Shown here one piece after another: positions 8,581-59,199 of a stretch of 64,000 nucleotides of DNA. Made by a program: the position numbers and the translations under genes. The DNA comes from Escallonia rubra. Taxonomy: Eukaryota; Streptophyta; Magnoliopsida; Escalloniales; Escalloniaceae. The number at the start of each line of letters is the position of its first letter. The first letter of the stretch is position 1. The stretch lies in assembly GCA_033065855.1 (NCBI GenBank), contig JAVXUO010000563.1, forward strand, positions 1 to 64,000, read 5' to 3'. The notes below the pieces were generated by a model. That model searched no databases, was not told the origin of the DNA, and saw only the letters and a list, made by a program, of their open reading frames with translations.

Positions 8581-10209
8581 GATAATATGTGGGAGGTATG
8601 TGTATGTGTGTCTTTAGTGGATGTATGGATTTAATTTCTCGGACAAAAATGCCCTTATACACTTTTACAAACTACATTAATGCATTTCAAATGTTACCAC
8701 ATCAGTAACTGCCAACCTATCTCAAAGCCTATTCATTTTCCCTCTTACTGTGTACTATACACCTTCATACATCTTCAATAATTCAAATTATGTGACTCTT
8801 CATCTCCACCTTGTCAAGTGACCAGATGATTAACTTTTGTGCTTGTTGTTCAAAGTTTGTTTAGAGGTAAATTAATTTTACGTTCTAGCCCTTGATTGCT
8901 TAATACTCCATATAACAAATGCTAATTGATATCCTTCTACTTCTGTCAGTTCAAAATGAGTTTTGATTTGTGAGTTTATGTAGTTTCGGGCTCTATAGAT
9001 TTAAAGCTTCCTAATCTCTTATGCTCTTTACACACTTTGACTTTTTTTTAGGATGAGGTTTGATAACTCTAGGGTTTATTTTAGGTGTCAGCTTTCAATA
9101 TAGGCATCAAAATATTATCAGCACTAAGATTCAATAGATAATTTACCGGGGGAAAAATGGTCTAGATAAAATAGTGAGAGCCAAAACTTTACTTTTCATG
9201 ATCGAACATTTTATTCGGTGTTACTGATAGGCAGTATGATTGACAAGTGTTATGTTTAAGTCGTTAATAACTTTGAAAACATCCCATGTACTAGATTAGA
9301 GTTATCGAATGGGAAGCAAACAACCCTAACTCCTCCGGAACAAACTTACTAGGATATTCTTTCAAATTTGTGAATCTGTAAACTTTGTTTGAGTATGTGT
9401 GCGGTTTGAATATTCTATTCTTGTATATGATGAGGCCATTTTTTCTCTTCTATAAATTACGCCTTAGAGGTTTAACCAAAAAGAGAAGTGAAGGAAAGTC
9501 ATTGCTAAAAGCCAAAAATAAGATTAAATAAGATAAAATCATTTGTGAATTAAAAAAAAACTGAAGAAACCTATTCATAGTCACCCAAAAATAGCCATGG
9601 CCACGCAGAATAGCCTACAAAGTTATATTTCAATAATTGTTTTTGAGAAATTACTACACAATACCTTTTTAACAATAAACACTGAAGTTACATGTCAATA
9701 ACTCATTTAGCCTAAGTTAGCATTCGGGGAATACAACTCTCTATATCTTTAATAGATATAACACTTTGGTATTAACAAGACGTCCAAGATGCTAGCTATA
9801 TTAGTGCTACATGAATGTAAATATTTTATCTCTAATACAAATGAAATATTTTTCTATTGACCGATAAACAAGGAAGGAGTTATTGAAAATATTTGACCAC
9901 TAGGCTTAGAAAGAGAAATTTTAGCCTTGATCTCTGAAGATGGTTGTTTTATGTGTTCCTAGATTGTTGCATTGACTTATTTTTTGGTCTTAAATGTTAT
10001 ACACTTGGTTGTAAAAGATAATTTTCATGCTTATGCCATGTTTATCAAAATGCATTCCGCGACCAAAATATTTTGATTTGCATCTATATTTTCATATGTC
10101 GGTTGCTTAGCAACTAATATGTTCAATTGCATATATAACCTCTATTAATTCCTTACTTGATTTTCATTGTGATGCATACTAATTTTATTGGCTATGAACC
10201 TTCTGAAAC
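8581..10209. other. Interior of old CACTA / Helitron body, no gene seen
   Basis: AT-rich DNA without a plausible coding frame. At least the right part is probably the body of the Helitron whose 3' end lies at 10246. I could not identify its 5' end. Confidence 0.4.
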
Positions 10210-10246
10210 ATTGGTGTTCACGTGCATCGCCCGTGGACTCAACTAG
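10210..10246 (+). mobile_element. Helitron 3' terminus
   Basis: CACGTGCATCGCCCGTG can fold as a short GC hairpin and is followed by ACTCAACTAGT. Helitrons end in a hairpin followed by CTRR, with insertion before T. Only the end is supported; the body probably extends left. Confidence 0.6.
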
Positions 10247-10821
10247 TAAGTAAAAATGTAAATAAATATAACCCTTAGGCTATTTAGGCAATTAAGTAGT
10301 TGCATTCTATAGCGAGTTTCAAGACGAATTCTCCCCGTTCTTTGCTCTATAAAACTAACCTCCAAACAAAACAATCGAACCTTACATCACAACATATTTG
10401 TTTGAAATATATGCAACGTGTAGTATTTTCAAATAAATATAATCAACCCATATTATTAAACAAGAAAAAGTTTATCATTCAACATATTGGATAATAAACA
10501 CACAATACCGAACAACAAAAGAACTACAAATAATAAATATTCAAACACAAATTTAAACGAAAGTACGATACTTTTTACAAACATTAGGATTTCTTTAGTA
10601 TACATAAAACCAAAGTCAAAAAGACATATTCATAGCAAGAAAAACAAAGAGAACAAAGTTAAATTACTGCCATTTGCCTAGTTAAACCGAGAAAAGGGCA
10701 GTAAAAAGGCCTTACGAGAAAGGCTAGTCTTTGTTGTCAACCCAATAACAAAATCGGTTGCTCTTAAAGAAAATCTTTCACTCAAAATCGAAGATAACAG
10801 AAAGAGAGTAGGAAGAAGAAT
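10247..10821. other. Interior of old CACTA, no gene seen
   Basis: Small plus-strand frames (10300-10681) are A-rich and show no known domain. I treat them as chance. Confidence 0.4.
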
Positions 10822-10952
10822 TAGGAGGGGATGGGGGGCGGGGGTGGGGCACGTGCGAGGCTGTGGCAGGGGATGTGGGGGTGCGACAACGGGGTGGGGG
10901 AGGGAGGCATGGGCGGTGGGAGGGGGAGGGGGAGGGGGAGAGAGAGAGAGCA
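10822..10952 (+). repeat. G-rich low-complexity tract with quadruplex potential
   Basis: Runs of three to six G separated by short spacers (GGGGATGGGGGGCGGGGG and three GGGGGA repeats) end in (GA)n. It lies just inside the right end of the old CACTA. It matches in position and character the C-rich region near 25000-25140 of the younger CACTA, read on the other strand. Overlapping proline-rich frames on the minus strand come from this composition. Confidence 0.7.
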
Positions 10953-11537
10953 ACGGCAGGGAGAAAAGAAGAAGAAATTTTGGGTGTTACCCAACTTGTA
11001 GAAATCTTCCTCAAATCCCGTATATAGTGACAATTAATAGTCGTTAAATGTTTATAGTACATTTTCTGCTAACACTTTCAACGACAATTCTTATATGCAT
11101 TTTTTAGCATCATTAAATAAAAATCACTAGCAACCAAAAAATTTTCAAAAGGAAAGGAAGTAGGGTTTTGGTCCATTTAATGGATTTTGGTCCCTGCTAA
11201 AACTCCGCTTGTAAATGCCATTAAATGTTTTTGAAGATATGGATTTTTACCAACGGATATAGTCCATCGGTAATATTCGCCGCTAAAGACCATTAAAAAT
11301 TCTTCTTCAAGAAAGAAGCTGAATAAGGGGCAAATTTTGAAAATGTAAATGAGTGACGGAATTACTGTCGGCAAAAGTCCGCTGCTAAAGACTTTTATCG
11401 CCAGAATATTCTGTTGGTAATTGTTTTTAGCGACCGACTTTTATCGGCAAAAATAACGGTTGTTAAAAGTCAATTTTAACGACGAATTTTATTTTGTTGT
11501 TAAAAGTTCGTCACTGAAAGGTGTTTTTCTTGTGGTG

Positions 11538-11764
11538 GGACTGCTTTGGAGGACACGAGTCCTTTAACTTTCACTTTCTACATGCTTGCTCTTCCTCTTC
11601 AGAATTTTATCTCACGTTATAAGTTTTGACTTCGGCATCATAGATTTTCCATCGTAGCCCTCTCCAAGGAGTCATCGTTTTTTTCATTTTGTGCTTTGCA
11701 GGTCCAATCGCACGCTTGTCCGGTCTCAATCAACTTTTATCCGCAATAGGGTCAAACCCAAAAA
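11538..11764. other. Continuation of DNA interrupted by the old CACTA
   Basis: Begins with the second GGA copy. It continues the sequence broken off at 4199 and leads directly into the second promoter-like copy. Confidence 0.5.
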
Positions 11765-12048
11765 TGGTATAATAATACTCATTTTTGTCTCTCGGTTTGG
11801 CCAATGAACGTTACGAAATATAGATAGATGAGGTGATAGAAACATTTAAGAGATGATGGCCTCTTTGCACGTTATTTCAATAGAAAAAGGACCAGTTTTA
11901 CAATTTACCTCGTTTGAATCATGACCATACCAACAATTTTATAGTGTGACAGTAGTCAACAAAATGGTACCGGGTTCGTTTTTTTTTCTTCTTCAATTTT
12001 TTGGGAATACTGCAAACAATTTTAACATGGCATAATTATACCAAAAAT
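11765..12048 (+). promoter_or_regulatory. P2: second copy of the GH1 promoter-like segment
   Basis: Shares with P1 and P3 the blocks CCAATGAACGTTACGAAATA, ATAGATAGATGAGGTGATAG, CCTCGTTTGAATCATGACC and AACAATTTTAACATGGCAT, in the same order. It keeps the A/T junction where a Helitron sits in P3, so it serves as an empty site. No exon follows it directly. Confidence 0.6.
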
Positions 12049-13044
12049 GCATATATATTTAGACATAACATAATCATTAAAAAATTTATATGTAATACTT
12101 ATTTTTAATAATCAAATTATAAGACAATTTTTCACTTTGATTAGACCGCATGACCAACAAAGTGACTATATTGCATATATGAGATTTTGAAAAGAATCAC
12201 ATATGTACTAGGAAAAATATGGTACAATTAAATCAAATAATTCTTAATTTCTATACTTGAGAATATATAAGATGAAAAAATGTATTCATGTAATTCTACA
12301 AAACTAACGATAAACTAGTTCGTTTTTAGATAGGACCCTAACGGTCAATAAAAAGTCATTTTTATTTATACGTAATTGAATTTTTATGAAAATAAGACTA
12401 ATTAGTAAATCTTAGACAAGTTATAAGCATTAAAGTTTAGTTATGATTATAATGGAGTTTATTATAACTATGAGTGGTGATTATTGTGCGAATTTAATAA
12501 CAAGTGGTTGATTAACGTTGAGTGGTGATTAACGCTAGCCCTATATATAATATTAGCCTAATATAATGACATTTGTTATCATTTCCAAGCTCCTAATAGT
12601 TATATGTATAATTTGATATATTTTGGTATATAAATGTTATATTAAGTTTTGATAAAACAAGTATAATTCCTCAGAAAATATCATTAAATGCACTTAGTAG
12701 ATACAAAAACTATAACTTGGCGCTCAAAATAAAAGTTTAAAGAAGGTAAGTATCTAGCGGCTCCACTATGTCGCTACCTATTCTTTGACTTTCACCTTAC
12801 ATTATAAAGAAATTACAGATAAACACACATGTATATGCAAATATTTCATAATAATTGCACAAAGCCTAATCAAACACAAAATGTTATTTGATAATCGCAA
12901 GTTAAGAGTAATGCAAGTAAATTAATTTTTTGATATTTTACTTAGGTTTGTCGTGATTAATTTAGGTACTAAGGTTATTTTTTCTAGCCAAATAAAACAC
13001 TTTTTCATAATGTTAATATTTTTTTTGTCTCACGATATGTGGTA
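12049..13044. repeat. Repeat block X, inverted copy in GH1 copy 1 intron 7
   Basis: Several blocks reappear in reverse complement at about 18530-19830: the GTGGTACGCATTAATA end, the TTAGGTTTGTCGTGATTAAT region, AAGACTAATTAGTAAATCTT and GGTGATTATTGTGCGAAT. It separates P2 from P3. It is AT-rich and non-coding. The class is unknown; a non-autonomous DNA element or Helitron is possible. Confidence 0.55.
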
Positions 13045-13096
13045 CGCATTAATAATTATTTTTGTATATTACATTTGACCGATGAACGTAACAAAA
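13045..13096 (+). promoter_or_regulatory. P3, left part, interrupted by a Helitron
   Basis: TTGACCGATGAACGTAACAAAA matches the same place in P1 and P2 with a few changes. The match then stops and resumes at 14075 with TATAGATAGATGATGAG. Confidence 0.6.
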
Positions 13097-14074
13097 CTCT
13101 AATTATATATAATATGAAAGCCGAATTTGACCGAGAATGTAACGTCTATGTACACCGCGTATATATATATATATATTTATTTATGCCATGTGGATTGTCT
13201 AAAAAATTTGCCATGTGGATTAAAAAATTTACTCTAATATTCTAAATTTATGTCCCTAAAATTTAGTCATTTTAAATGAGTGATTGAAGACATTCATTAT
13301 ACAAATTAGCTTTACCTGATTTTTCTTTTAAATTTTAAAAGCTTCTTTTCTATTAATCTCCCAAAATCTCTCTCTGAATCTCTCAAAATTAACTAACGGT
13401 AATATTATAAATATATGTTATAATTGTCTCATTAATCCTATCATTTCTTTTATTCAATATTATGAACCCACTCTCTACCTAAAGCATTTTTGGCCTGAAA
13501 ATTGAAAGTTTTAGGAGTTGGACGCCAACATCGATTCAAGAAAAGAAAATTTTCATTGCATTCTTTAGTTGTTATAGAATTTAATAATCTTATGTTATCC
13601 AGAATATCTTTACATAGAAAGAATGGGCCAAGATGGACCTAAATTTGTATTTTTTATTTTTATATTACTTCTTTAAGCTTCTCATTTGTTACCAAATTTG
13701 TTTATTTTATTTTTCCGTGTGTTCAAGTGTTATCTGTTTTCTTTATCCCATGTGCAATATTTCAGGACTTTCTTTCTAATTAAAAGGGTACTAAATTTTT
13801 ACTTTTTTTTATTACTATTATATCACAACATAGATACACTTCAAAAGTATCGCTTATAATCATCTAACGTCTTATTGCACGAAAAATACTATTTAGATCT
13901 CGCTTATAATTATGACATTCGAAGAAATCCACGTTCCTTTTTTGTATTATTTTTTATATATAATAATTCATAATACAGTTGTACTACAAAATCCATTTAA
14001 GTAGTCAAATAAATTTTTATTTTTTTTTTATTTTTACACAAAGTTCCGTGTGCAACGCATGTGATCAAAGCTAG
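13097..14074 (+). mobile_element. Non-autonomous Helitron inserted in the GH1 promoter segment
   Basis: The 5' end reads (C)TCTAATTATATATAATATGA, a usual plant Helitron 5' TC start. The 3' end has a GC-rich hairpin region (CCGTGTGCAACGCATGTG) followed shortly by CTAG at 14071-14074 and then T. Removing it joins AACAAAA to TATAGATAG, which is the uninterrupted sequence in P1 and P2. That gives an A|T insertion without target duplication, as Helitrons do. It is about 978 bp with no coding region. The first base could be 13097 or 13098. Confidence 0.75.
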
Positions 14075-14310
14075 TATAGATAGATGATGAGATAGAAACA
14101 TTTAGATGGATGAGGGCATCTTTGCATGTTAGTGTTTCGACAGAAAAAGGACCGCTGCATAATTTATTCCTCGTTTGAATCATGATGTGATAGTAGTAAA
14201 CAATCTGGGAGCAGGGTTTTTTCTTTCATTTTTTGGGAACACTGCGAACAATTTTAACGTGGCATAATTAGTAATACAAAATTGTGATCTGGGACGCGTT
14301 GGTATCGGGA
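14075..14310 (+). promoter_or_regulatory. P3, right part: upstream region of GH1 copy 1
   Basis: Continues the promoter-like segment with GTGATAGTAGTAAACAATCT and CGAACAATTTTAACGTGGCA, ending about 50 bp before the TATA box. A related but more diverged stretch lies upstream of GH1 copy 2 at 55348-55460, for example GATAGTAGTGAACAAT and TATCGGGACCACTGC. A short (AC)n tract follows at about 14320-14342. Confidence 0.6.
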
Positions 14311-14360
14311 TCACTATGCCAAACACACACACACACACACGCACGTCAGTGTTTTTTGCC

Positions 14361-14368
14361 TATAAATA
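14361..14368 (+). promoter_or_regulatory. TATA box of GH1 copy 1
   Basis: TATAAATA lies 120 bp before the ATG. The same CCTATAAATACAGGGTTC context stands 120-127 bp before the ATG of copy 2, which supports it as the core promoter. Confidence 0.75.
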
Positions 14369-14480
14369 CAGGGTTCAAAGATCTCTTCCTCCACAAGAAG
14401 AAGGCAAACCGTTTCTGCTATTGTCTACTTCACAGCCAGCCAAGTGTTAGCACAAACACCGTTTGTAGCCAAAACCTTTG

Positions 14481-15094
14481 ATGGCAGCCCCAGTTCTTCC
14501 CGGCGCGACCTTCCGGCCCGATTTTCCCGAGGGTTTCATCTTTGGTGCATCAACCTCTGCTTTTCAGGTACATTTTCCAACATACTCCAACCAAAAAATG
14601 AGGTAATTACCATTACCGTCTTTATATATCTTTATAAAAGGCTGAACTACCACAAAATGGAGCCAGTTGTTTTTCTCATCCTACGTAACTTTCTCTCAAG
14701 TGCAAGTACCGGAGAGACATATTGGAGGGTCACCGCAACTAAGGTGCTCTACTATATAAACAGATGGAGCAGAGATTGCACATTGATTGAACCATGACCT
14801 TACTAACACCACCTTACTAACAAGTAACAAGAGATCTCGTATTGAGTTACCAACTTCTTTATGTTTACCAATTGAACCGAGTATTTCATAACACTCTTAT
14901 AAAATTTGGTTAGTCTTGTCAAAGTAGATATTGTTTATGTTAAAGTTATTTGTACTTTGAGGTGGTTGTATCATATGCCGTTGTTTTGACAAAAAATATA
15001 TATCTACTTCAGGATAATGACGCACGTTAAAATTTTGAGGCAAAGTTTCTAAGAACAGGGACGAATCAGATTGGAAAAGTCTTTCTGCCTAAAG

Positions 15095-15131
<37 letters not shown>

Positions 15132-18100
15132 ACGCCACTGCATATCTTCTCTTCTGCTAATTTGCTTTTGCCTTTTCAGATTGAAGGTGCTGTGGACGAA
15201 GATGGGAGAGGTAAAAGCATATGGGATACTTATGCCAAGGAACAAGGTCCTCTCTCTGCCCCTCCTCCCCGTGTCCTGTGTCATTTGTATTAAGTAAGAT
15301 AACATTGTTGGGTCCATTCTCTAACAGCTTAAGCTTTTAGAGCAGATGGTAACTTAACAATTTGGTATGTGAAAAAGACCTTGAAGTACTTTCTTTTGGA
15401 CGATGATGAAGAACACCCACGTGAGCTTGCGCTTCACTCGAGACTAAGATGTTTAGATTGGATCTTTGATTAATTAACATCTCTTTTTTATCTACTTCCT
15501 TTGGATAATGTCAAGTTAATTCCTTACATCGGCCCACTGCCCGTAAGAAAACAAAACATTTTTGGATCTAATTTTTTTTTGTTATCTCAAATAAGTAATA
15601 AAAATCACAAACCTACTCAACCACCAACCATCGGAGTCCTTTAGTAATTAATATCTCCTTTTTATTTATTTCACCCTTATTTTAACACTGGACAATATCA
15701 AGAGTAAATTCCTTGCATTAGTCCATTATTGGACATATATATAGAGCATATCTGCTTAACCGTCGGCCCCTCGCATTCCTTTTAGTACTTCTTCTAACGC
15801 ATCTAGAAACTGCTTTTTTATGGTTGAAAAAAGAAAAAGAAGCACACAACTTTTACCAACATCTTTCTGCTATTTTTGTACTTTTTTCACTATTTAAATT
15901 CCCTTTGACTCGATTAAATTGCCAATATTCCCCTCTGTCTATCACTCCTGTCCACACCGTTTCCATTTTCTTCTTCCTATAAAACAAGCTTCTACATTGA
16001 TGTGGAGCTGGAACAACTGGACGGGGAGATGGTGGTTTACGGGCCCGAAGACGACTTCATTTTGGTGGTCATCTCCAAAAGTAGCCAGTTTTGACTTGGG
16101 AGGTTTATTTATTTATTTTTTCCTATTTCTGGAACCAAAACTTGCGACTTGGGAGCTGCAGATTCCCAAGGGGCGCTGGTTATGGCCTTTAAAAAACCGA
16201 AGTTGAAAGCTGAGAGGGGAAAACAACGGGATAAAATGCATCATAAATTGGGATTTTGGAATTTGGAGGGTTTCTATTTTGAGCTTATAACTTGTATATA
16301 TCGAACTAAAGGGGGTAGACTTTCTATTTAGAACTTAAGGGGTACACTTGTTATTATGTGAAAATACTAAAGATTCAGTTGCATTGTTGTTCAATGACAG
16401 GTCTAGATGGTTGGCAGGAAGGTACAGATCATTATCACCAATATGAGGTTCGTAAAACAAAATTTCATCTGATACAACCATAAATAGTCATTTCACTAAT
16501 ATGCTTCAAAATCATACATTCTTGAAAGGAAATGCAGATATTCTCTCCTGTCACAATGATTTTGAAGTACAGTAGGAACGTTAATTATGGTCCATTCCAT
16601 GAATTATCGGTTCATCTACTCATTTTTGCTACCTACTCATCAGCTGATTAGTTACATCATTTTCAGGAAGATCTGAAGCCCACGAGCTATATGGGACTGG
16701 ATTCTTACCGATTCTCAATATCATGGTCGAGAGTACTACCACGTAAGCGTTGATGTTGACCAATATTTGACATCACAGATTATCATATCTATACTAATTG
16801 ATGCGTGGTACTTTTAACATAGAGCTTATTGCGAGTATCTGAATGGCACGATAAGTAGTAACTCCAAATACATCTGCAATTTCGCGATTCCATTATTGTG
16901 CTTACACTGTTTGCTTTCTCTGCCTAATTGCATTTTTCAGATGGAAAAGCATCTGGGGGTCCTTTTGGCGATGGAAAGAACCAGCAAGGCATAATATTCT
17001 ACAACAATCTCATAGACAGGCTTCTTCTCTTAGGTTATGCTTCAATACTGAGTCCATCAAACACACACGCTCAAGCACACAACCACACTCGAGGACACAT
17101 TTGTAACCGTTTCACCTCAGAGAGTTTAATCTTCGTGTATATGCATGCAGGTATAATACCTATCGTGACTCTTTCCCACTGGGACATTCCCCAAGCCCTA
17201 GATGATGAATATGGTGGTCTTCTGTCCCCAGAAATTACGTGAGTGGCTTGCTTGTTGTCCCATGATCTATATCTATGTGCGAAATCATGAGAAACATGTT
17301 TAACTATCATGAACTATTTTGCATATTGATTGTCTTTTCAGTCTATAACCAGAGAATAGGGTGTGAGGTGTGAGTGTTAGGACTCGGTGTGGACAACGAC
17401 AACCCATGTCTACCTCTTTATCAGATTAGAGTTGAAGGAATAAAAATAGACTGACTCCATTTTGTATGATAGAAAGAATCCAAATCGGAGTCGACGCTCT
17501 AATAATCAATACTTGACTGACTCCATTTTGTAGGGTAGGGTTCATATAGTGTAATCATTTGTGATGAATAATTTTGAAAGTCTTTTATACTGTTACAAAT
17601 TATAAGAGAGAAAATATGTGCATATGTTTGTACCGTATTGCATGCAGTGCTTGTGCATTCTAAAATAAATATCGATGACAAAAGGGTCTCATTTTCACGT
17701 TATGGTGCCCAATCTTGTGGTTGAAAAAGTTACAAGCAAAACGCTCGATCAACACTGGTTCGAAAGGATATCAGGAACTTTTTTATTAGACTTAATTTGT
17801 GCAAAATGCTCAATCAACGATAGTTCTAGCAGATATATTTCTCTATTAATAGCTAGTAAAGTCATACATCTAATAAACCAATAATGTTCAACATGTGAAA
17901 GATTACCAATTATAAGAGAGTCGACTTCCTGTAGCAAAAGCTGAAGCAGAGACTGTGTGTTTTGTGTATTAGATTGTTTTGGATTAGGGATTTGCTATAA
18001 CATGATGAACTACCTAATGAACAGGAAGGACTTCTTAGACTTTGCCAACCTTTGCTTCAATGAATTTGGCGATCGGGTGAAGCATTGGATCACATTCTGC

Positions 18101-21100
18101 GGACCTTGGAGCGTGGCTTATACTGGATATGGAACGGGTACCATTGCTCCCGGTCGCGGGGTTAGTTCCAGCGCAGTCGAAACATTTGCTGCAAGGAGCC
18201 TCCTCCCTCCAGATCTCACTTTTTCTCAGTCATATAGAACAAGAATTCATCGTGACGCTTCCGGGGATCCAGGAACAGAACCGTACTTGGTGGGACATCA
18301 TCAGCTTCTTGCTCATGCAGCTGCAGTGAAGTTATACAGGGAAAACTACGAGGTTATAAATTCTGCATACATTATTTAACTTCCAGTAATGCCACTCTCG
18401 CTTAGCTGTCCGAGCGACGGTACATAAAAAAAAAAAAAGCGTCGTCAATTATACAAAATTAGCCCAGTAACCCGAGCCAAACTTGGGTCTGTTTTTTAAA
18501 AATACAGTACACCATAAAGTTTCAAAAAGTTTATTAATGCGTACCACATATTGTGAGATAAAAAAAGACATTAACAGTATAAAAAATGTCTTATTTGCCC
18601 GTATAAAATAATCTTTGTACCAAAATTAATCACGACTAACTTAAGTAAAATATCAGAAAATGAATTTACCCGCATTACTCTTAACTTTCGATTATTAAAC
18701 AACATTGTTTGTTTGATTAGGATGCATGCAATTATTATGAGATATTTGCATATACATATGTATTTACTTTCCTTCTTCAAGCTTTTGTTTTAAGTTGTCA
18801 AGTAGTATTTGAAATGAATATTGACTTAGCACCTAGAGTAATAGAATAGTCATGCTAGTGCCATATAGAGTTAAATAGCGAATGCGATTGTAGTTGTAAC
18901 TAAAAAAAGTGACGCTATCACGTATCACTTTTGAATTGTAAACATCATATATGGATTTAATTCCTTAAATTCAGAGGGATTTTAAAATGTTAGACATGTT
19001 CTCGAAGATATTATAAGGATTAAGTATAAATTTAAAAGGAATAAAATTGCATTTCAAATCCAACAAGAATTATGTATACACCTTATCACTTTCAAATAAA
19101 TTATCACTTTCTGTAAAAATAATTTTTAACAGAACGACCACATAGTATTCGATTTTTTCATATATATGTTTTTATTTAATTCTTGTAAGATGCTATTAAT
19201 GAGAAAATTCAATTGATGAAGATGACTTGTCCTCGTTTTGGTGTGTTGAGATTAATTTTCATATCTTCCATGACTATTATTTGTCAGCAAATTGTAGTTT
19301 CTATATCTACTGTATGCATTTAATGACTTGTTTCATCACAACCTAATACCAAAATATGTCGGGTTATATCTATAACTGTTATAAGCTTGTAGAAAGTATT
19401 ATTATATTAGGCTAATATTATATGGCGAGCATTAATCAATCACTTGCTATTGAATTCACACAATAATCACCTCTCATAACTGTAATCAATACCATTATAA
19501 TTAGACTAAATCTTAATTTTTATAACTTGTCTAAGATTTACCAGTTAGTCTTATTTTTCTTAAAAATTTAATCAAGTATAAATAAAAAAAGTCTTTTCTA
19601 GATCGTAAGGGCCCTATTAAAAACGAAATGGTTAGTTTTGTAGAATTAAATGGATATATTTTTGTATCTTAAAGGTTTTAAATGTTCTTATATATATTTC
19701 AAGAATTAATTATTTGATTTAACTGTACCATTTTTTTTAATACGTATGTGATTTCTTTTCAAAATATTAAACTTATATTATATATAGAAAATTTTTTGGA
19801 AAAATTATATTATGCATAAATATATATACATTTAGTAAATTATAATAAACTTAAATTAACTGTAACATAATTTTTTTATTCTAAATATCATATATATTTT
19901 TTTTTCTAGATACACGATTTTTTTATTTTTTATGAGAGAGTTAAATTTAAAGACATGATAGTCAAAATTAAATCCATATAAATCCATATATTTAGAATTT
20001 TCATATTATATAAGGCTTCTTAATATAGCCCTCATATAGTTCCTGCAAAATTAAATATCGAAACTGACATATTAGATTTAGAAGAGAAAAACAATGATAT
20101 TACAGTTGAGATTAAAAAAATTTAATTGAGATTCAAACAATAAAAATAATGTAACAATTGATTCATATTAATTTTATTTTAGTATATGCTTACTGTATTC
20201 AGTGTAAAGATTTATCAATATAATATATAACTTTTAGAATCGTTCTGGTAAAATAAAAAAATTAACGTTATTTTTAATTAAATAATTGTATTATAATTAT
20301 TAATTAAAATTGTAACAATGATAAAGCTTATTCGTAAATCTGATAATTGAAAATGATCCAGTGCTATATACTGAATATGTTAGTGTATCTAAAGATATGC
20401 AAATATTATTTTGGTTTTGATCCATATTTTTAAGTTTATTTAATTTTGGAGGAACTATATGATGGCTATATTAGGAAGCCTTATATAATTTGATTATTGA
20501 ACTTATATTTTATATAGATAATTTTTGTAATAATTATGTTATGCGTACATATATATACATTTATTAAATTATAATAAACTTAAATTAACTGTAACATTAT
20601 TTTTTTCTTCTAAATCTCATACGTTGTTTTTGTTCTCTATATACATAATTTTTTATTTTTGTATGAGAGAGTTAGTTTTGAGGGCATGATAGTCAAAATT
20701 AAATCCATACAAAGTAGTATATTTTAAGTTTTAAAATTAGTTTTCTGATTATATAAGGCTTCCTAATATAGCCCTCATATAGTTCCTACAAAATTAAATG
20801 AACTTAAAAATAAAAATCACATCTAAAATAATATTTGCATACCTTTAGATACACTAACATATTTAGTATATAGTTATGAATCATTTTTAACTATCGGATT
20901 TACGAATAAGTTTTATTAACATTGCAATTTTAATTAGTAATAACGATACAGTCATCTATTGGTCGCGTGATCTTAGCAAAAAAATAACGTCAATTTTTTA
21001 TTTTACCAAAAGATTCTAAAAGTTATATATTATATTGATAAATCTGTACATCAATTATGGTAATGTAACATCATATTTTTTTCACATCTAAATCTAATTA

Positions 21101-24017
21101 TTTTCCTTTTTTAGATATATAAATCTTCATATTCGTATTATAGAGTTGTTTTAAAGATACAATAGTTAAAATTAAGTCCTAATAAGTGAGTTCATTAATT
21201 AGTCAGAGTTTCAGAATGTTTACAATTAGTTTTTTAATTATATAAGGCTTATATATGAAAAATTAACTTATCAAGAAATAAAGATCTCATCCAAAATAAA
21301 ATTTGAGACCTTTAGAGACACTTATAATGTTTACAATTCTATTTCACATTAGATATATAATGCGATGACGTGTCAAATAAAGAAACTATCTCTATGATGA
21401 CGTGTCACGCAAACAAACAAAAAACTATCGCTTCGCTTATTATATATTATATAGATATATATATTTGGCATAAAGAGTTGTGCAATGATACCGGTTAGCG
21501 ACACCTGTTAGGTAATAAAGACAGCGTTTGACATAAGTTTAACGTGAGACTATTTCGACACTCGGTTTAAGAAAATACAACTTTAACGATTGAAAAGGCT
21601 GAATTTAACGTCACGCTTTCTTTGCATTTTATGACCAAAGAGTACCCATGTTGGCTGCTCTATGTCCTTCATAAAACTGGTCATTTATTGGAGCTTTGTA
21701 TGTTTTATGACCACAGAGTACTCAAAAGGGAAAGATTGGGATTATTCTCCAGCAAATTTGGCCTATAGCTTTGACCGATACTGAGGAAGACCGCGCTGCT
21801 GCACAACGATGCAAAGATTACATGTTGGGATGGTAAGTTGTGCATCTTCCTTATGCTTTGGAAGTGTGCTTAATGTAATTATGAGGAGGAAGTCTGAGAG
21901 CCATACTTTTAGTTCTAAACTAATACACCAGACCCCAGTTTGATAAGACTTCCTTTAAAGAAGTCATGGATTTCTGATTCACGTTTTTTACGTGCCATTT
22001 TATACTTTTTCACGCTCTCACTTATTCGTTGTTGCAATATTTATGTGTTGTGTTTACTGCATATCTTAGGGACAAAAAAGAAGGTGGATTAGCATACATG
22101 GTCCAATCTAACAGACGCTAAAAATGTTATTGTCTTATTGCTATTCGTTTTCTGTAGAAAATTGGTGTACTTTCATATTGAGCGTTATGCCCCCCACCCC
22201 CCACCCCCCCCCCCCCCCCCACCCCGAATACAAGCAAATTTTGGTTTCACCCCTCATGATTGTAACGTACAATCACTAATGCATCGAGGAATACACAAAG
22301 TCCAGGGGCATGAAGCAAGATCACTCTTGAGTCTTGACAAAGCCGAATGCATATGGTGAACAAGATCTATGTGTGCAGGATTACATTGACAAAGTGCAGA
22401 AAGAAAGTTTCAATACTTGAGATAAATCATAGAAATCTGCGCCGACATCTATTACGCGATCGTCAATCCTTCGTTCCGCATTTGGGATTGTTCAGATCGG
22501 TGTGTTGCCATTTGGGTTTCCTGCGTTTACACTCATTTCCGTTTCCTTTTTTCGACACTTCTAGCCCTCTCTTAATCTTTGTTTACACATATCGTTAATT
22601 TTAGTTTACTGTTAAGCATGATAACAATTATAGTCCTATTATCTAACAACTTAAACTTATCATATGGTAGCTTTAGATTCGACTGTTCCTACTTGCACAT
22701 TTGGTTTCTTTTATTACACTACGGTTTTCACTCTTTTTATTTATGTATTTGGTGGTGACATCTTGATTTGTGTCTCCACGTATAGTTGAGCTTGCACGTG
22801 AAGGGAGTGTTAAGTATGAAAATCTTGTTCGGCATATTCTCCTATAACTTAAACTATAGATCGAGCAGATTGTAACTTAACATTTACCATGTCTATATAT
22901 TAGGTTCATGGATCCATTGTATAATGGTGACTATCCAGATAGCATGAAGGATTTCATAGGATCCCGTCTCCCAGCATTCACAGATGAAGAATCCCAGATG
23001 GTAAAAGGGTCTTATGATTTCATAGCACTTAACTACTATACTGCTGCTTATGTGAGAGATGCACCTGAGGCTGCCGATGGACCCCCAAGTGTTGTTACCG
23101 ATCCCAGAATTGCATATGAAAGTAAGTTTGAGATCAACTACCATTTTTTGTTAATAAGCCACTCTTTATGGTAAACAAATAGAAGTCAAGAACCTTCTTA
23201 GTTCACGCTGTTGGGGTTCTAAGAATATCCATTTTCTTTTCTTTGGTAGTCGAGCGTGACGGGGTACCAATCGGTGAACAGGCAAGTCCTTCAATTTAAT
23301 CCACACTTCTTTAATTTGTATCTTTTTTTTTTTTTTTTTGAATGCATTGTGAAGTACTTAGAAAATTGTTTTATTACGACAATGTTGCAGGGAGGTTCAA
23401 GTTGGATAAGAGTGTATCCAGCTGGGATTCAGGAATTCTTGGTCTACGTGAAGAACAAATACGATAACCCAGTTATTTACATATCTGAAAATGGTAATTG
23501 AGCTTATTTTGTTAAAGATCTCTAATAGATGACATTTGAAATTGACTTCCATGCTATATTTCAATTGCAGGGATTGATGAGATAGACGATCCCTCGTTGA
23601 CACGCTGGGAATGCCTTACCGATCATTGGAGGGTATCCTACTACCAAAGGCATCTTTCCTACCTAAAGAGAGCCATCTCCGAGTAAGTACTTTATTGAAA
23701 AAGACCTTATTATATTAGTTAGGCAACATATAAAGGAATTCTGAGCGCATTTGAGTCTGGACTTTTAGCTGTTGCGCGCGATGAAAATCATATAATGCCT
23801 CACTTGCCTCCCTTGTTTTTTGGTCATTCGATGTAGAGATGGAGTGAATGTGAAGGGCTACTTCGTATGGTCATTGACGGACAACTTCGAGTGGGGTGCA
23901 AGCATATATTCCCGTTTTGGAAACGCTTACATAGATTATGACAACGGACACACAAGGAACCCGAAGCTTTCAGCAGAATGGTTCAGGGTGCATCTCCTGA
24001 AGCCTACTCCAAGGTGA
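14481..24017 (+). CDS. GH1 beta-glucosidase-like protein, copy 1 (acid/base Glu replaced)
   Basis: Exons by splice consensus and homology: 14481-14567, 15180-15246, 16401-16447, 16667-16742, 16941-17033, 17151-17238, 18025-18352, 21717-21832, 22904-23121, 23250-23281, 23391-23493, 23571-23682, 23837-24017. They join to 515 codons with no stop. GH1 hallmarks: FQIEG (Q29), LSHWD (H133), NYYT (344-347), SENG nucleophile (E417), [10 protein letters not shown] (467-476). GH1 enzymes cleave beta-glucosides by a two-glutamate mechanism. Here the acid/base motif NEP reads C178-G179-P180 within WITFCGPW. Overall it most resembles raucaffricine/strictosidine glucosidases. No signal peptide and no ER-retention tail are seen, so it is probably cytosolic or nuclear. 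The segment before DHYHQYE is several residues shorter than usual. Intron 10 has a GC donor. Activity is doubtful, but the gene is structurally intact. Confidence 0.9.
15990..16235. other. Extra segment in intron 2 of GH1 copy 1
   Basis: Intron 2 of the two GH1 copies matches around the block CTATAAAACAAGCTTCTACATTGA and again from AAATGCATCATAAATTGGG. Copy 1 has about 220 bp between these points that copy 2 (about 52880-52950, reversed) lacks. One frame of it reads as plausible protein ([18 protein letters not shown]) before a stop. It may be a captured exon piece or chance. Confidence 0.35.
17239..18024. other. Intron 6 of GH1 copy 1, enlarged
   Basis: It is 786 bp against 275 bp in copy 2. 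It contains two direct copies of TTGACTGACTCCATTTTGTA-like sequence (about 17449 and 17513) and two ATTATAAGAGAG blocks. No gene is seen. Confidence 0.5.
18430..21480. mobile_element. Composite transposon insertion in intron 7 of GH1 copy 1
   Basis: Intron 7 is 3364 bp here but 376 bp in copy 2. The flanks match: TAATGCCACTC...CTTAGC on the left and TGGTTAGCGACAC on the right. The extra 3 kb is AT-rich. It holds an inverted copy of repeat block X (about 18530-19830), then two direct repeats of about 260 bp (19795-20050 and 20520-20795), and a pair of inverted arms of about 290 bp (20205-20492 and 20755-21055). Its right end carries a minus-strand Helitron 5' terminus. Confidence 0.65.
21425..21455 (-). 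mobile_element. Helitron 5' terminus (minus strand)
   Basis: Read on the minus strand it starts TCTATATAATATATAATAAG and continues into GCGAAGCGATAG, a common plant Helitron 5' end. The body would lie to the left within intron 7. I could not place its 3' end. Confidence 0.55.
21833..22903. other. Intron 8 of GH1 copy 1
   Basis: 1071 bp, with a C-rich tract (about 22190-22225) and small chance frames. The homologous intron in copy 2 is 885 bp (49298-50182). Confidence 0.6.
23282..23390 (+). other. GC-AG intron 10 of GH1 copy 1
   Basis: The exon ends GAACAG and the intron starts GCAAGT, with no GT that keeps frame. The acceptor is TGTTGCAG. The same junction in copy 2 reads GAAGAG then GCAAGG. 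GC donors usually have such an otherwise strong consensus. Confidence 0.8.
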
Positions 24018-24678
24018 GTACTGATCGATGCCGAAACTTCATGGCTTGTTTGCCGCCTCAATACGTGGTTGGGAATTTCTCTAACTCAATAAAAGATGGC
24101 GAAAGCATCTGGCGTCAAGACAATAAGACTGAGGCAGGAATGAGCAGCAAGCCCCACTACATAACCGACGTCTTCTATTTGCATGTTTTTTTGAACTTTG
24201 ATTTCAGCAGTTGCGTTTCATTTGTGTTTTTGGTGTGTTGTAAGATGGAAGTTCTCCATTGATTTCTAATGGGAAATTTTATGAGAAATATTGTATGAAC
24301 AAAATGTGTCACCTCTGTTGAACATAGCATGCTAATTATGCCTAACGTACGCTGCAAAGGCCTGTTCGTCTACATTGGAAACTCTATGGCTGACACCATT
24401 GCTGGAAGCAGTGGCTATTGGAGAGGCTCTTATACGAGCTACGAAATCCCGATTTCACTCAATAATGAACCTTGGATATAACCGGGCGCTAGGCCTTCCA
24501 CACATGATCAGTAAGACTTTGTTTCAAATGAAAAGAAAGAATGTCAATTCACATATCTCACTACACAATTTCACTAACTCACTTCGTGCTGTTTCACATT
24601 AACAGTGTCAATTTAGAGTGATTTAGCTCTTTCTTTTCTTTTATTTTTTATAATGAAATCGTCATATATCAGTCTTTT
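24018..24678. other. 3' flank of GH1 copy 1, shared with copy 2
   Basis: It matches, in inverted order, about 47600-48197 downstream of copy 2, including CATTGGAAACTCTATG, GGCTCTTATACGAG and CACATGATCAGTAA. It contains the 3' untranslated region and is cut at 24679 by a CACTA element. Confidence 0.7.
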
Positions 24679-24689
24679 CACTACAAGAA

Positions 24690-24945
24690 AAGATGGCTTT
24701 AGCGACGGACTTTTAGCGACGGAAGGTATTCCGTCGCTAAAAGACTGATTCAACGACGGTATTTACCGTCCGTATAAATCCGTCGTTAAAAAAGTTTACC
24801 AACGGACCATTCCGTCGGTAAAAGAATTTGCCAACGGATTTTTACCAACGAACTTTTAACGACGGAAAAACCGTCGCTAAATAGATTTAGAAAGTTTTAA
24901 CGACGGAATATTAGCGACGGACTTATTCCGTCGCTATAGGTCTTT
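24690..24945. repeat. Left subterminal repeats of CACTA
   Basis: Many direct and inverted copies of the 12-bp motif TTTAGCGACGGA and close variants (AACGACGGTA, ACCAACGGA). In CACTA elements such motifs are where the element's own DNA-binding protein attaches, so they are the likely cis sites here. Confidence 0.85.
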
Positions 24946-25021
24946 CCTTAATACGCAGATCTGCTTTCTTTCTTTTCTTTCTCCCGTTTCTCTCTCTCTC
25001 TCTCACCCACCGGCGTTCTCA

Positions 25022-25137
25022 CCTCCGGCGACCCCCTCTACGGCAACCCACCTCCGGCGACCCCCTCTACGGCAACCCACCTCCGGCGACCCCCTCTACG
25101 GCATCCCACTTCCGGCGACCCCCTCTACGGCAACCCA
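25022..25137. repeat. 29-bp minisatellite, four units
   Basis: The unit CCTCCGGCGACCCCCTCTAC plus nine bases starts at 25022, 25051, 25080 and 25109, with two changes in the later units. It follows a (CT)n tract and probably lies in the transcribed 5' leader of the transposase gene. A consensus donor (CTCCG then GTAAGT) at about 25262 could open a leader intron ending at TTCAG just before 29255. That leader intron is inference. Confidence 0.75.
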
Positions 25138-25855
25138 GCCCCAGCGACACCCCTATCTTCCCCCCGACGTCGCGCCACCTCCGGCGGCCGTCACGGCCAG
25201 TCTTCAACGACCAGATCGATCTAGCGAAGTCTGCCTAGATCTTTGAGCTTCGGCCAACTCCGGTAAGTTCTTGTGTGCATCTATCTGTAATTGTTAATTG
25301 CCTTCTACCGTCACCTTAACAATCGAATCTATGGCTATGGCTTGATGCTACTGTTGCTATTTTTATATTTGCTTGATTTTGTTATCTATTTGTTACTTGT
25401 TATTGTTAACTTGAAGTGTTTAGAACTGATTTATTAATTTATCTCTAAATAAAAACTTCCTATAACAGCTAAGTAATATGCCAGTAGTAAAATAGAAAGA
25501 AGCAGAAATTAGAAAATATATGTGAACTATCATGATTAATGAATAAATGAAAACTGGTTAAAAAACAAAAAGAACAAAATTCTGACACTTGCTCGTTTAC
25601 CCGCGAGTGCACATTTAGACATGGCTTGAAATCTAACAAAAAGATGGTAAAAACATAAACAATGATGCGCACAAAGACATTGGAAAATATATCTGCTTCC
25701 GATATATTATGTCAACAAGCTTGTTCTGAACCAGTTGCAACTTAAGCCTTTTTCAAATTTATGGCTGATGGAGAAGATCCATGGGATCGGGGGCAGTGGA
25801 GGTGAGCATAGCATAATTAACTCAGCGGGTGCAAACATACCCATATACCTAAATT
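25138..25855. other. CACTA interior between leader and minisatellite
   Basis: No coding frame with a recognisable domain. It would be intronic if the leader intron proposed from about 25262 is real. Confidence 0.4.
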
Positions 25856-27000
25856 GAACTAATTGAACCCTAAATTGAATGCCCCAAATCAATCAAACCC
25901 TAAATTGAACTAATAGAACATCCTAATTGAACCCTAAATTGAAGTTATTGAAGCCTAATTAAATCCTAAATTGAATGCCCAAATCGAATCGAACCCTAAA
26001 TTAAACTAATTGAACCCCTAATTGAACCCTAAATTGAATGCCCCGACTCAACCGAACCCTAAATTGAACTAATAGAACCCCATAATTGAACCATAAATTG
26101 AAGTAATTGAATCCTAATTAAACCCTAAATTGAATGCCCTAATCGAATTGAACCCTAAATTAAACTAATTGAACCCCTAATTGAATGCCCTGATCCAACC
26201 GAACCCTAAATTGAAATAATTGAACCCCCTACTTGAACCCTAAATTGAATACCCCAAATCAACCGAACCCTAAATTGAATCAATTGAACCCCCTAATTGA
26301 ACCATAAATTGTTGTAATTGAACCATAATTAAACCCTAAATTGAATGCCCTAATCGAATTGAACCCTAAATTAAACTAATTGAACCCCTAATTGAACTCT
26401 AAATTGAATTCCCTAATCCAACCGAACCTTAAATTGAACTAATTGAACCCTAAATTGAATGCCCCAAATCAACCGAACCCTAAATTGAACTAATAGAACC
26501 CCATAATTGAACCTTAGATTGAAGTAATTGAACCCTAATTAAATCCTAAATTGAATGCCCTAATCGAATCGAACCTTAAATTAAACTAATTGGACCCCTA
26601 ATTGAACCCTAAATTGAATGCCCTAATCCAACCGAACCTTAAATTGAACTAATTGAACCCTAAATTGATTGCCCCAAATCAACCGAACCCTAAATTCAAC
26701 TAATAAAACCCCCTAATTGAACCCTAATTTGAAGTTATTGAACCATAATTAAATCCTAAATTGAATGCCCTAATCGAATTGAACCCTAAATTAAACTAAT
26801 TGAATGCCCTGATCCAACCGAACCCTAAATTGAAATAATTGAACCCCCTAATTGAATGCCCAAAATCAACCGAACCCTAAATTGAATCAATAGAACCCCT
26901 TAATTGAACCCTAAATTTCTGTAATTGAACCCTAAATTGAATGCCCTAATCGAACCGAATCCTAAATTAAACTAATTGAACCCTAAATTGAAATAATTCA
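25856..27000. repeat. Telomere-like minisatellite rich in CCCTAAA
   Basis: About 1.1 kb of irregular repeats built from AACCCTAAATTGAA, CTAATTGAACCCC and GAATGCCC(T/C)AAATC. Every 15-40 bp carries CCCTAAA, the plant telomere heptamer, but units are not perfect telomere arrays and no subtelomeric junction is seen. It lies wholly inside the CACTA element. Confidence 0.85.
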
Positions 27001-27399
27001 AGCGCACCAGATATGTGCATTTTGAACAATTTTTTTCCATTTGAACATTGATAATTTGTTTCATAATTTTAGGTTGTTAATTGTGCATTTGAGAATTGTG
27101 ATTATTGATCTGTGATTTTAGGTTGTTAATTGATGATTTTAGGTTGTTAATTGATGATTTTAGATTGTTAATTGTGCATTGAGTATTTGAGATATTGAGA
27201 TTATTGAAGGAGGATGGGACCCAATTGGATTGAATGTGTGATTTTTGTTAATTTTTATTGCATTGAGCATTTGAGAATTGAGAATTGAGATTGTTGACGG
27301 AGGATGGGACCCAATTGGATTGAGATACCTGTTGGTTAGCGCAGACACGGACACCACGTCTAATCGACGGTGTCCGACATTTAAAAAAACAAATTAACG
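27001..27399. repeat. Short direct repeats inside CACTA
   Basis: Repeats of GATTTTAGGTTGTTAATT (27113-27175) are followed by two copies of GGAGGATGGGACCCAATTGG (about 27208 and 27298), each preceded by TTGAGA-type sequence. Non-coding. Confidence 0.6.
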
Positions 27400-27556
27400 T
27401 ATGCCGATGTGTCTGGAGGTACGTGCCGGTGGGCGTCAGACACGTGTCCGGAGGCGTTGGACACATGTCCGGAGGCGTCGGACACGTGTCCGGAGGCGTC
27501 GGACACGTGTCGGTATGTGTCGGACACGTGTCCGGAGGTGTCAGACACGTATCGGA
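27400..27556. repeat. 21-bp minisatellite (CGTGTCCGGAGGCGTCGGACA)
   Basis: About six units, GC-rich, with changes in the outer units. Because 21 is divisible by three, it creates open frames on both strands with PPDTCPT-type repeats. These are not genes. Confidence 0.85.
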
Positions 27557-27689
27557 CACCATATCGACACCCTATATGAGGTGTCGGAATTGAGGTTGTT
27601 GAATGTGCATTAAATTTAGGTTAGTTAGGTTAATGCGACATTTTTAGCATGCACCCCCTGGAATCTAATCGTGGCTCAAGCGCTGGTTA

Positions 27690-28515
27690 TAATTAGCCCT
27701 AATTAGTCCTGATTAACAATATTTTAGTAAATCAATTAACCCTAATTAGCTCTAACGAGCCTAATTAGTTTTAATTAACCCTAAGAACCTCATGAAATTC
27801 AAATTAGCTGTAATTACCCCAAATTAGCCCAAATGAACCCAATTATGCGCATATTGATTGTAGTTAGCCTAATTAGTCATAATTTGCACTAACATAACCC
27901 AATTACGCCTAATTAGCGCTAGTTAGGACTAATCAACACTACTCGGCACCATCAAAACCCTAATTAGGACTAAATAACCCTAATTAGTCCTAATCAACCC
28001 TAATTAGCTATAATTATTCAAAACTAGCCCTCATTAACATTAATTAGCTCTAACATAACCCAATTAAGCCTAATTAGCCCTAATTAGGACTAATCATCAC
28101 TACTCGGCACAATTAAACCCTAATTAGTCATAATCAACCCTAATTAGCTATAATTATCCGAAACTAGCCCTCATTAACATTAATTAGCCCTAACATAACC
28201 CAATTAAGCCTAATTAGCCCTAATTAGGACTAATCAGCACTACTCGGCACAATTAAACCCTAATTAGGACTACATAACTCTAATTAGTCCTAATCAACCC
28301 TAGTCAGCTATAATCATCCGAAACTATCCCTCATTAACATTAATTAGCCCTAACATAACCCAATTAAGCCCAATTAGCCCTAATTAGGACTAATCAGCAC
28401 TACTCGGCACAATTAAACCCTAATTAGGACTAAATAACCCTAATTAGTCCTAATCAACCCTAATCAACTATAATTAATAATCGTAATTAACCCTAATAAC
28501 CCAGTTAGCCCTAAT
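27690..28515. repeat. CCCTAATTAG minisatellite with higher-order units
   Basis: Built from TAATTAG, CCCTAATTAGGAC and AACCCAATTA. The landmark CACTACTCGGCAC recurs at about 27938, 28098, 28238 and 28398, which gives a higher-order period of 140-160 bp. It is inside the CACTA element, upstream of the transposase. Confidence 0.85.
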
Positions 28516-29263
28516 TAGCCCTTGTACATCCCATAATTACTCCATGTTGTCCAGAGATGGTTCAATTACTCGTTGTTTACAAACCCTGCCTTCTTTATAT
28601 TAATTGTTGTTTTGAGAAGTCCATTGGCAACGAGATGGTTCAACTCGTTGCCAACGAGTTCTATTTAATGTGGAATTGGTAACATATGCAACGATCATTC
28701 TGCAGTTTTGATATTTCGGAAAGATTCTTGCATATCTTATCAATTTCTGAACACATGCATGCATAGAAACCCTTAGTTCCCGTTCAAAGGTACTCATTAC
28801 AAAGTAATGCCTTGTAATGAGCCTTTGGATGTCCAGTTTGGACAGTTTGGAAAAGCTAATTGTTTATAAAACAGTATTTTGACTCATGCTTTATGTTCTA
28901 TGTCGTGGATATTTGGTACACGTTCTCGTGTGTTTCTCCGGGTGCATACAGATCTGGTGTTCTAACATCCGTCAAACCTTCCTGAGCAAGGTTAGATGAA
29001 TGTTAGAACACCTAATCGATGTGGTGTACTTGGAGAAATGCGGGGAGGTGCTGCCGAATTTTCCACAGACATCGGACTAAGCATGAGTTATTCACTGTTT
29101 TATAAACATGTGCTTTTCTGAATGGGATAGGACCACTACCTGTTCAAGAGTGGAGGGGAAATATGTAGACATGTTGTAACATTCATGCATTGATATTTAC
29201 ATCGGCAATGCCTAATCACTGGTCATTATTGAAGGTGGTATATAGTACGATAATTCAGTCGTC
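28516..29263. other. CACTA interior just upstream of the transposase
   Basis: No coding frame with a domain. The sequence ATAATTCAG at about 29254, nine bases before the ATG, is a good intron acceptor for a leader intron. Minus-strand frames such as 28600-28797 look like chance. Confidence 0.4.
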
Positions 29264-32200: not shown

Positions 32201-32922
32201 CCTGCTTGAAATTACTAGCCGAAGGCCCTAACAAACAAACATCCTGTTACGGAGGCTATATCATCAACGGGTTTAGGTTTAACGTAAAAGATGATGACCG
32301 AACAAAACAAACCCAAAACAGTGGAGTCTTGGTCAACGGCGACTGTTATGCCGAGAATTGCATGGATTTTTACGGAGAGCTAGATGAGATTGTTGAGCTA
32401 ACATATCTGGGTTCCCAAAACCGCCTGGTAATGTTCAAGTGTACGTGGTTCGATGTCACATGCAGTAGAGGAATCCGTGTTAGCTCTCAAGGGATTGTAG
32501 ATGTCAATGTCAAGTCAAGACTTGCATCAGACGAGCCCTTTGTGTTTGCTAGTCAAGCTGTACAAGTCTTTTACGCGGAGGACGTCGCCAATCCCAAATC
32601 TCATTGGTATACAACTATCAAGTCCAAGAAATTGCCCGTGACATATGACAGTGAGCTAGACTCCTTTCAAGCCGACCAACCACGTGTCTTGTTCCCTGTT
32701 GAGGTCAACAACGAGGAGGACGATCTTCCTCTTCCAACAACACTTCTTGTGGGAGAAGAAGTCGTAGATGATGACGCGGAAGATGTTGAAAGTGTTGGAG
32801 ATGATGTGACCGAGTCTACTGATGAAGAGGATGAATTAGAAGATGAAGAGGACGACGAGTCCCACGAAGAAGAGGGCGACGAGGATAGTGATGAAGATGA
32901 TTCGCAAACTGAAAATGATTGA
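29264..32922 (+). CDS. TNP2-like transposase of CACTA transposon
   Basis: Exons 29264-31497, 31591-31902, 31987-32074 and 32173-32922 join in frame to 1127 codons without a stop; all introns are GT-AG. Domains in order: an N-terminal transposase-associated domain (about residues 1-78, SWMKRK start, CSCGRC cluster), the TNP2 transposase core (about 200-430, with FPVTPRLQRMY and GWSTHGKLACPAC), a DUF4218-like region (about 640-790), a DUF4216-like region (about 885-1040), and an acidic Asp/Glu C-terminus. The protein recognises and cuts element ends, usually together with a second element-encoded binding protein. The start is the first ATG after a plausible acceptor. Full length suggests recent activity. 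Confidence 0.93.
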
Positions 32923-33002
32923 CTTGTAATGTTGTAACATCACGGGAAAAATGTAGTAACATTTTAGAACTTGGTGTTTATTGATGTGTTTTTGCACATC
33001 CG

Positions 33003-33006
<4 letters not shown>

Positions 33007-33035
<29 letters not shown>
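33007..33035. repeat. (TA)n microsatellite
   Basis: A TA tract between the transposase stop and the second CACTA gene. Confidence 0.9.
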
Positions 33036-33037
<2 letters not shown>

Positions 33038-33100
33038 CCGATGATGATTTATGCCTAAATTATTGTTTTTCACGTGTTAATGTCTTTGTATATAATCTAT

Positions 33101-33748: not shown

Positions 33749-33837
33749 AGTATTTTTTTCAGCGTTAGTAAATGTTAAATTACAGTTTGCTTTATGTTAT
33801 TAATTTGTGTTATTGAATGCATTACATGAGGGGTTCA

Positions 33838-34035: not shown

Positions 34036-34048
34036 TTTTCTTGTAGTG

Positions 34049-59149: not shown

Positions 59150-59199
<50 letters not shown>

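Follow-up and report, generated by a model that had tools for sequence, protein, structure and literature searches.

Few pseudoglycosidases, to our knowledge, have been described in plants. We analysed a set of glycoside hydrolase family 1 (GH1) genes of Escallonia rubra in which the Asn-Glu-Pro (NEP) motif bearing the catalytic acid/base is replaced by Cys-Gly-Pro (CGP). Two of them, copy 1 and copy 2, lie in the 64,000-nucleotide stretch that was analysed (positions 1 to 64,000 of the forward strand of contig JAVXUO010000563.1, assembly GCA_033065855.1), hereafter the window. Under the GH1 mechanism, hydrolysis of an O-glucoside should be very slow without the general acid/base, and loss of the Asn of NEP, which contacts O2 of the sugar, should weaken transition-state stabilisation. 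Myrosinases (1myr and others) are GH1 enzymes that function without the acid/base Glu; they keep the Asn and have Gln beside it (Asn-Gln-Pro, NQP), in contrast to the Cys-Gly-Pro found here.

Other described systems resemble the CGP proteins in part. In rice, Os4bglu14 and Os9bglu33 have Gln instead of Glu at the acid/base position, and transcripts of both have been seen (PMC1781453); like the CGP proteins they are plant GH1 members without the acid/base Glu, but theirs is a Glu-to-Gln substitution, whereas CGP is a double change of Asn-Glu to Cys-Gly across an expanded clade. The Catharanthus roseus protein shSGD, an inactive strictosidine glucosidase isoform that inhibits the active enzyme (PMC9266299), is an inactive GH1 relative acting as a regulatory pseudoenzyme, much as we propose for the CGP proteins; it arises, however, by alternative splicing and has a truncated C-terminus, whereas the CGP genes stand as full-length loci of their own, and a search of the window at E 0.01 found no alternative NEP exon. 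Sugar-binding pseudoglycosidases and the GH1-like Klotho are also known (PMC7828330), and alpha- and beta-Klotho are GH1-like, lack catalytic activity, and have a new role in binding, as proposed here, but are animal proteins with tandem GH1 repeats that belong to a receptor complex. In ligases obtained from acid/base-replaced glycosidases, the acceptors are thiols, small anions, phenols, and carboxylic acids (PMC7519651). These thioglycoligases share with the CGP proteins an inert residue at the acid/base site and a kept nucleophile, but they are laboratory mutants, and the accessible part of that source mentions no change of the adjacent Asn. A double Asn-Glu replacement is likewise not described for Klotho, shSGD, or Os4bglu14 and Os9bglu33 in the accessible text of the respective papers (PMC7828330, PMC9266299, PMC1781453). 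A literature search limited in reach and aim turned up no plant GH1 protein with CGP, and the accessible part of a paper on the ipecac pathway (PMC12568652) holds nothing on a CGP GH1.

Among solved structures, the best single-domain matches to the CGP proteins were 9lf6 (strictosidine glucosidase) and 9lfr (OpBGlu1), the top row, 8in1, being a tandem GH1 protein. Strictosidine glucosidase, raucaffricine glucosidase, and OpBGlu1 (9lf6, 3zj6, and 9lfr, respectively) have the fold family, the nucleophile, and the glycone pocket in common with the CGP proteins. Two differences are seen in the alignments: where 9lf6 and 9lfr have NEP the CGP proteins have CGP, and the exon-3 loop of these two enzymes (DGSNG in 9lfr) is longer than the short exon 3 of the CGP proteins.

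The E. rubra genes form an expanded, selectively maintained GH1 family without the acid/base, which is larger than first noted. Its full-length modelled members are intact; the family is of single origin, has been under purifying selection since the loss, and retains the glucose-contact residues in the genes aligned. CGP is here the property of a whole gene family for which an order of events can be proposed; the genome also contains sisters that look catalytic, and the sugar pocket has been kept. It can thus be tested whether a GH1 fold became a sensor of glucosides, a partner of an enzyme, or a transferase that needs no acid/base, and the family would caution against annotating CGP genes as beta-glucosidases. 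The core of the first-pass annotation, neofunctionalisation, holds up, its confinement to two paralogs does not, and a start-less probable haplotype of copy 1 complicates the picture.

The two CGP genes of the window

Copy 1 (14481-24017, forward strand) and copy 2 (55220-48198, reverse strand) are GH1-like genes in convergent orientation, each with a 13-exon splice model that ends in a stop codon. The exons of copy 1 lie at 14481-14567, 15180-15246, 16401-16447, 16667-16742, 16941-17033, 17151-17238, and 18025-18352 (exons 1-7) and at 21717-21832, 22904-23121, 23250-23281, 23391-23493, 23571-23682, and 23837-24017 (exons 8-13). Those of copy 2 lie at 55220-55134, 54605-54539, 52049-52003, 51831-51756, 51565-51488, 51365-51278, and 51002-50675 (exons 1-7) and at 50298-50183, 49297-49080, 48955-48924, 48829-48727, 48645-48534, and 48381-48198 (exons 8-13). 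Both genes have a start and a stop codon with zero internal stops or frameshifts, and their introns are GT-AG throughout except for intron 10 (GC-AG). The products, of 515 and 511 amino acids, respectively, are 82.5% identical, and copy 2 matches the GH1 profile PF00232 over residues 13-501 (475 bits, E=2e-142).

The replacement of Asn-Glu is encoded by TGC GGA at 18098-18103 in copy 1 (Cys178-Gly179, forward strand) and at 50929-50924 in copy 2 (Cys173-Gly174, reverse strand), precisely where the first-pass annotation had placed it. The surrounding WITFCGPW occupies residues 174-181 in copy 1, as had been stated, but residues 169-176 in copy 2, which had been given the same numbers; copy 2 runs five lower because copy 1 carries a 5-residue insertion. 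Both copies also have the other GH1 hallmarks (QIEG, HWD, NYYT, SENG, and WSLTDNFEW), again as first read. The retained nucleophile motif, ISENG, falls across the end of exon 11 (23391-23493, forward strand, in copy 1; 48829-48727, reverse strand, in copy 2). Exon 3 has in both genes a short form that replaces the usual DGSNG-type loop (16401-16447, forward strand, and 52049-52003, reverse strand, respectively).

For the comparison with solved structures we used only alignments extending to the site (9lf6, 9lfr, and 3ptk). In all three, strictosidine glucosidase included, Cys-Gly sits exactly on the Asn-Glu of NEP with no gap nearby. The first-pass annotation had asked whether another Glu could align at the acid/base position; the alignment is gapless, and among the 31 columns specific to CGP genes described below an acidic residue occurs only at D305, D372, and E378 (numbered as in copy 2), all at a distance from the motif in the linear sequence. 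Judged from the primary sequence, a Glu shifted into that position is unlikely, although an acid from elsewhere in the fold may lie there. The CGP protein models begin with MATPVV, MAAPVL, or MEIPLS, and a simple hydropathy scan, made with no dedicated predictor, gave no evident signal peptide and only a weak hydrophobic stretch; the proteins are thus probably cytosolic.

A CGP family in the genome and its origin

We searched the whole 566-Mb genome, in which the window contig is labelled C2530, with exon 7 of copy 2. Only the best candidates were scored in this search, so all counts are lower bounds. Of 100 matches listed, 86 span the motif and 14 reach only the end of the exon; the motif was read in all 86 (30 loci, 51 short pieces, and 5 from other loci). 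Ten of the 86 listed matches, on eight contigs and with copy 1 and copy 2 included, carry CGP. The other 76 read NEP or NEA (69 matches), NDP or NDS (6), or DN (1). These figures count loci rather than distinct working genes, because probable haplotype copies of contigs are among them and some matches contain stops. The two genes of the window had been described as two intact paralogs; both are intact, but CGP is common to at least 10 loci. Sequencing error, chance, and misalignment are ruled out as sources of the motif by 10 concordant loci on eight contigs together with the gapless alignment.

Seven CGP loci form clade A (copy 1, copy 2, C143, C98, C2135, C1650, and C788), with exon 7 80-100% identical to that of copy 2. 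Three loci form clade B (two on C2426 and one on C721), in which the motif reads ITICGPW and the exon is about 52% identical to copy 2. The two C2426 loci (L017 and L018, at 13.2 kb and 75.6 kb) are 62 kb apart and 99.97% identical over 3.3 kb; either the locus was duplicated very recently or the assembly contains it twice. The six exons with NDP or NDS in place of NEP are L019 and L020 (C2321 and C2322), L079, L088, L094, and L096. Stop codons are read in L079, L094, and L096, and the group thus seems to be in partial decay, in contrast to the modelled CGP genes. The single DNP case is a GH1 exon piece, L099 (C3083:55974-56078).

Gene models were built for C143, C98, C2135, C1650 (exons 2-13), and one clade B gene, and, for comparison, for the NEP genes of C2189 and C2205 and the NDP gene of C2321; for the exon 6/7 junction of the clade B gene a strong GTGAGT donor was chosen manually. 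The five full-length clade A models and the clade B model contain no stops and no frameshifts, and the clade B protein matches PF00232 with 454 bits split over two stretches. A short exon 3 (L-x-G-W-...-HY) is common to the modelled CGP genes and the NEP genes of C2189 and C2205, which identifies these two as the closest catalytic-looking relatives found; OpBGlu1 and the NDP gene have the longer exon-3 loop. One of these NEP sisters (L048, C2205:57000-65500) has no good GT donor at exon 5 in its model and may be defective. Clades A and B grouped together in IQ-TREE analyses, with ultrafast bootstrap values of 95 (protein) and 96 (codon), and CGP therefore has a single origin. The order of events was probably the short exon 3 first and CGP second. 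Clade A and clade B are about 57% identical and the CGP genes and their NEP sisters about 55%, and because these distances are nearly equal the change from NEP to CGP looks old.

The presence of NEP sister genes in the genome also accommodates the view that a CGP protein serves solely as a partner subunit or inhibitor in hetero-oligomers with active NEP paralogs, its sugar binding being incidental. Mixed oligomers are made less certain by the low identity between CGP proteins and NEP sisters, and a partner role alone leaves the retention of the whole glycone pocket (see below) unexplained, so we regard this account as doubtful.

Glucose pocket and selection after the loss

Seven CGP genes entered the residue alignment, which leaves out C788, C721, and the second C2426 locus. 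The Cys codon is TGC in all seven; for Gly, clade A uses GGA and clade B uses GGG, and the following Pro is CCT, CCA, or CCG, so that Cys-Gly-Pro is unchanged while its codons vary synonymously. The chance of Cys and Gly both surviving in seven genes is 0.008 under neutrality and 0.16 at the average ratio of nonsynonymous to synonymous substitution rates (dN/dS), and because of the latter value their conservation alone is modest evidence. The nucleophile motif SENG is present in seven of seven genes. Every scorable CGP gene retains ten further residues of the glycone site, among them the equivalents of maize Q38, H142, E464, and W465; one column, that of the Q, is unscorable in C1650, where exon 1 was left out. 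The ten were listed from knowledge of the family, and five, the nucleophile included, also appear in a published list (PMC1781453). With assumed starting codons, all ten would be kept with a chance of about 7e-13 if the genes evolved neutrally and of 2e-5 if they evolved at the average dN/dS. For comparison, the NEP/NDP genes share 248 invariant positions, of which the CGP genes, with C1650 excluded, keep 168. Thirty-one columns, a few of them at poorly modelled ends, are fixed in the CGP genes and differ from the three NEP/NDP genes; they include the surroundings of the motif (A179 and Y180) and the QQ and P of GIILQQ(I/V)WP.

The aligned CGP genes therefore have the nucleophile Glu of a catalytic GH1 enzyme, in (T/S)ENG, and not its acid/base Glu, which CGP replaces at all 10 loci. 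The kept nucleophile would suit a myrosinase-like hydrolase assisted by an external base such as ascorbate, but both Asn and Glu are replaced in the CGP genes, where a myrosinase would have Gln next to a kept Asn, and we consider such an enzyme highly improbable.

Selection was evaluated with branch codon models in our own implementation, in which single-ratio branch lengths agreed with IQ-TREE. The NEP/NDP background had an estimated dN/dS of 0.31. Of the three post-loss classes, the clade A stem had 0.27, clade B 0.29, and the branches within clade A 0.48, and dN/dS=1 was rejected for each of them (p=2e-7, 6e-9, and 6e-9, respectively). Omission of C1650 and C2205 caused no important change in the selection results. 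The simple pairwise estimate between copy 1 and copy 2 was 0.46. Values below 1 were found for the tips copy 2 (0.38, p=0.02) and C2135 (0.22, p=8e-8) and, taken together, for the group of copy 1 and C1650 (0.44, p=6e-4). A three-ratio model was no better than a single ratio (p=0.17), and a five-ratio model was better (p=0.012). The stem on which CGP arose had estimates above 1 (1.2, 4.06, and 3.98, and 49 when two sequences were dropped) and exceeded the background (p=0.034, or p=0.016 with the two dropped). Positive selection on this stem was not accepted, since dN/dS=1 was not rejected (p=0.49, or 0.36 with the two dropped), and the excess over background is weak evidence for it.

A dN/dS near 1, which the first-pass annotation had named, together with a lack of expression, as grounds for refutation, is thus not seen at the family level (p<1e-6 in each post-loss branch class), and on this evidence we reject a family of pseudogenes. 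Neofunctionalisation rather than decay is strengthened by a loss that extends over the subfamily and was followed by purifying selection. With NEP sisters, a single origin, and dN/dS below 1, the genes have the history expected of pseudoglycosidases derived from an enzyme. Purifying selection, together with the kept nucleophile and pocket, argues for a maintained function that is independent of the acid/base.

Two modes fit a kept pocket and nucleophile, namely binding without turnover or transfer from activated donors. We favour the first, with a probability of about 0.5 that the CGP proteins are glucoside-binding pseudoglycosidases with a role as sensors or as partners of active paralogs. 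The family has lost the acid/base Glu and the adjacent Asn (NEP to CGP), with the nucleophile and glucose pocket remaining. The probably cytosolic CGP protein would then bind a beta-glucoside in the former active site but would be unable to protonate the leaving group or to activate water. The retained binding may have been reused for sensing or holding glucosides, or for the modulation of an active glucosidase paralog on which the protein docks. We thus infer loss of hydrolysis, glucoside binding, a cytosolic location, and a sensor or partner role from the features of these genes.

The main rival, which we consider less probable, is a natural glucosyl-transferring enzyme that needs no acid/base. 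Its nucleophile Glu would accept glucose from a donor whose leaving group is good (e.g., 1-O-acyl-glucose) and pass it to a carboxylate, thiol, or phenolate. The nucleophile and pocket kept under purifying selection in the aligned CGP genes suit such a transferase, as does the inert residue at the acid/base site; acid/base-replaced retaining glycosidases become ligases that need activated donors and strong nucleophiles (PMC7519651), and transfer of this kind was raised as a possibility for Os4bglu14 and Os9bglu33 by Opassiri et al. (PMC1781453). The transferase is weakened by the loss of the O2-contacting Asn together with the Glu, and our limited literature search turned up no natural enzyme of exactly this kind. 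A more specific and doubtful variant gives a part to the invariant Cys at the former O2-contact position, which might bind, activate, or itself be a thiol acceptor in a GH1 class without a carboxylic acid/base. If so, the retained nucleophile would form the glucosyl-enzyme from a self-activated donor, and the proteins would be natural thio- or acyl-glucoside ligases or thiol-dependent glucosyl carriers.

Several observations weigh against the pseudoglycosidase interpretation. A residual transferase would explain the retained nucleophile just as well, and a protein that only binds has no need of one. The average dN/dS is a generous yardstick for the pocket, because its residues are strongly conserved across GH1 generally. 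A two-ratio model separating CGP genes from the rest (0.39 vs 0.32) gave no gain over one ratio (p=0.21). The tips copy 1 (0.64), C1650 (0.45), C143 (0.82), and C98 (4.5) were indistinguishable from 1, and the block holding the motif had the highest pairwise dN/dS between copy 1 and copy 2 (0.87); these values allow recent relaxation in places. Moreover, 13796-14516 of the window, which covers the region upstream of copy 1 and its first 12 codons, is missing in C1650, and copy 1 may be dispensable because C1650 has neither this upstream region nor the start codon. Such a loss in a probable second haplotype, the four tips, and the raised dN/dS within clade A would all suit a relaxed, dispensable family heading for loss, with CGP as the fossil of an early inactivating event. 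That history appears improbable given the intact models of five clade A genes and one clade B gene, the rejection of neutrality on every post-loss branch class, and the retention of ten glycone residues.

Haplotype variation and neighbouring elements

Contig C1650 is collinear with the window (identity 95.9-99.2% in four long stretches that lie within 8628-24421, and 86-98% in pieces beyond 34 kb) and is for these reasons probably the other haplotype. Its lack of the window segment 13796-14516 represents presence/absence variation of an intact GH1-like gene. C788 is cut by a contig end; the 0.9 kb of it that was compared is 99.3% identical to C1650. An AT-rich insertion of about 3 kb in intron 7 of copy 1 (18555-21580) is absent from C1650.

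About 9.4 kb of the window (24679-34048) is also absent from the collinear C1650. This segment contains a CACTA-type transposase (Transposase_21, DUF4218, and DUF4216) at 29246-32922 and satellite-like AACCCTAATT tandem arrays, and is probably a haplotype-specific transposon insertion. Scans of the window for tRNA genes and Rfam families gave no matches. Retroelement fragments (RVT_1 and zf-RVT) lie at 59143-60882 on the reverse strand.

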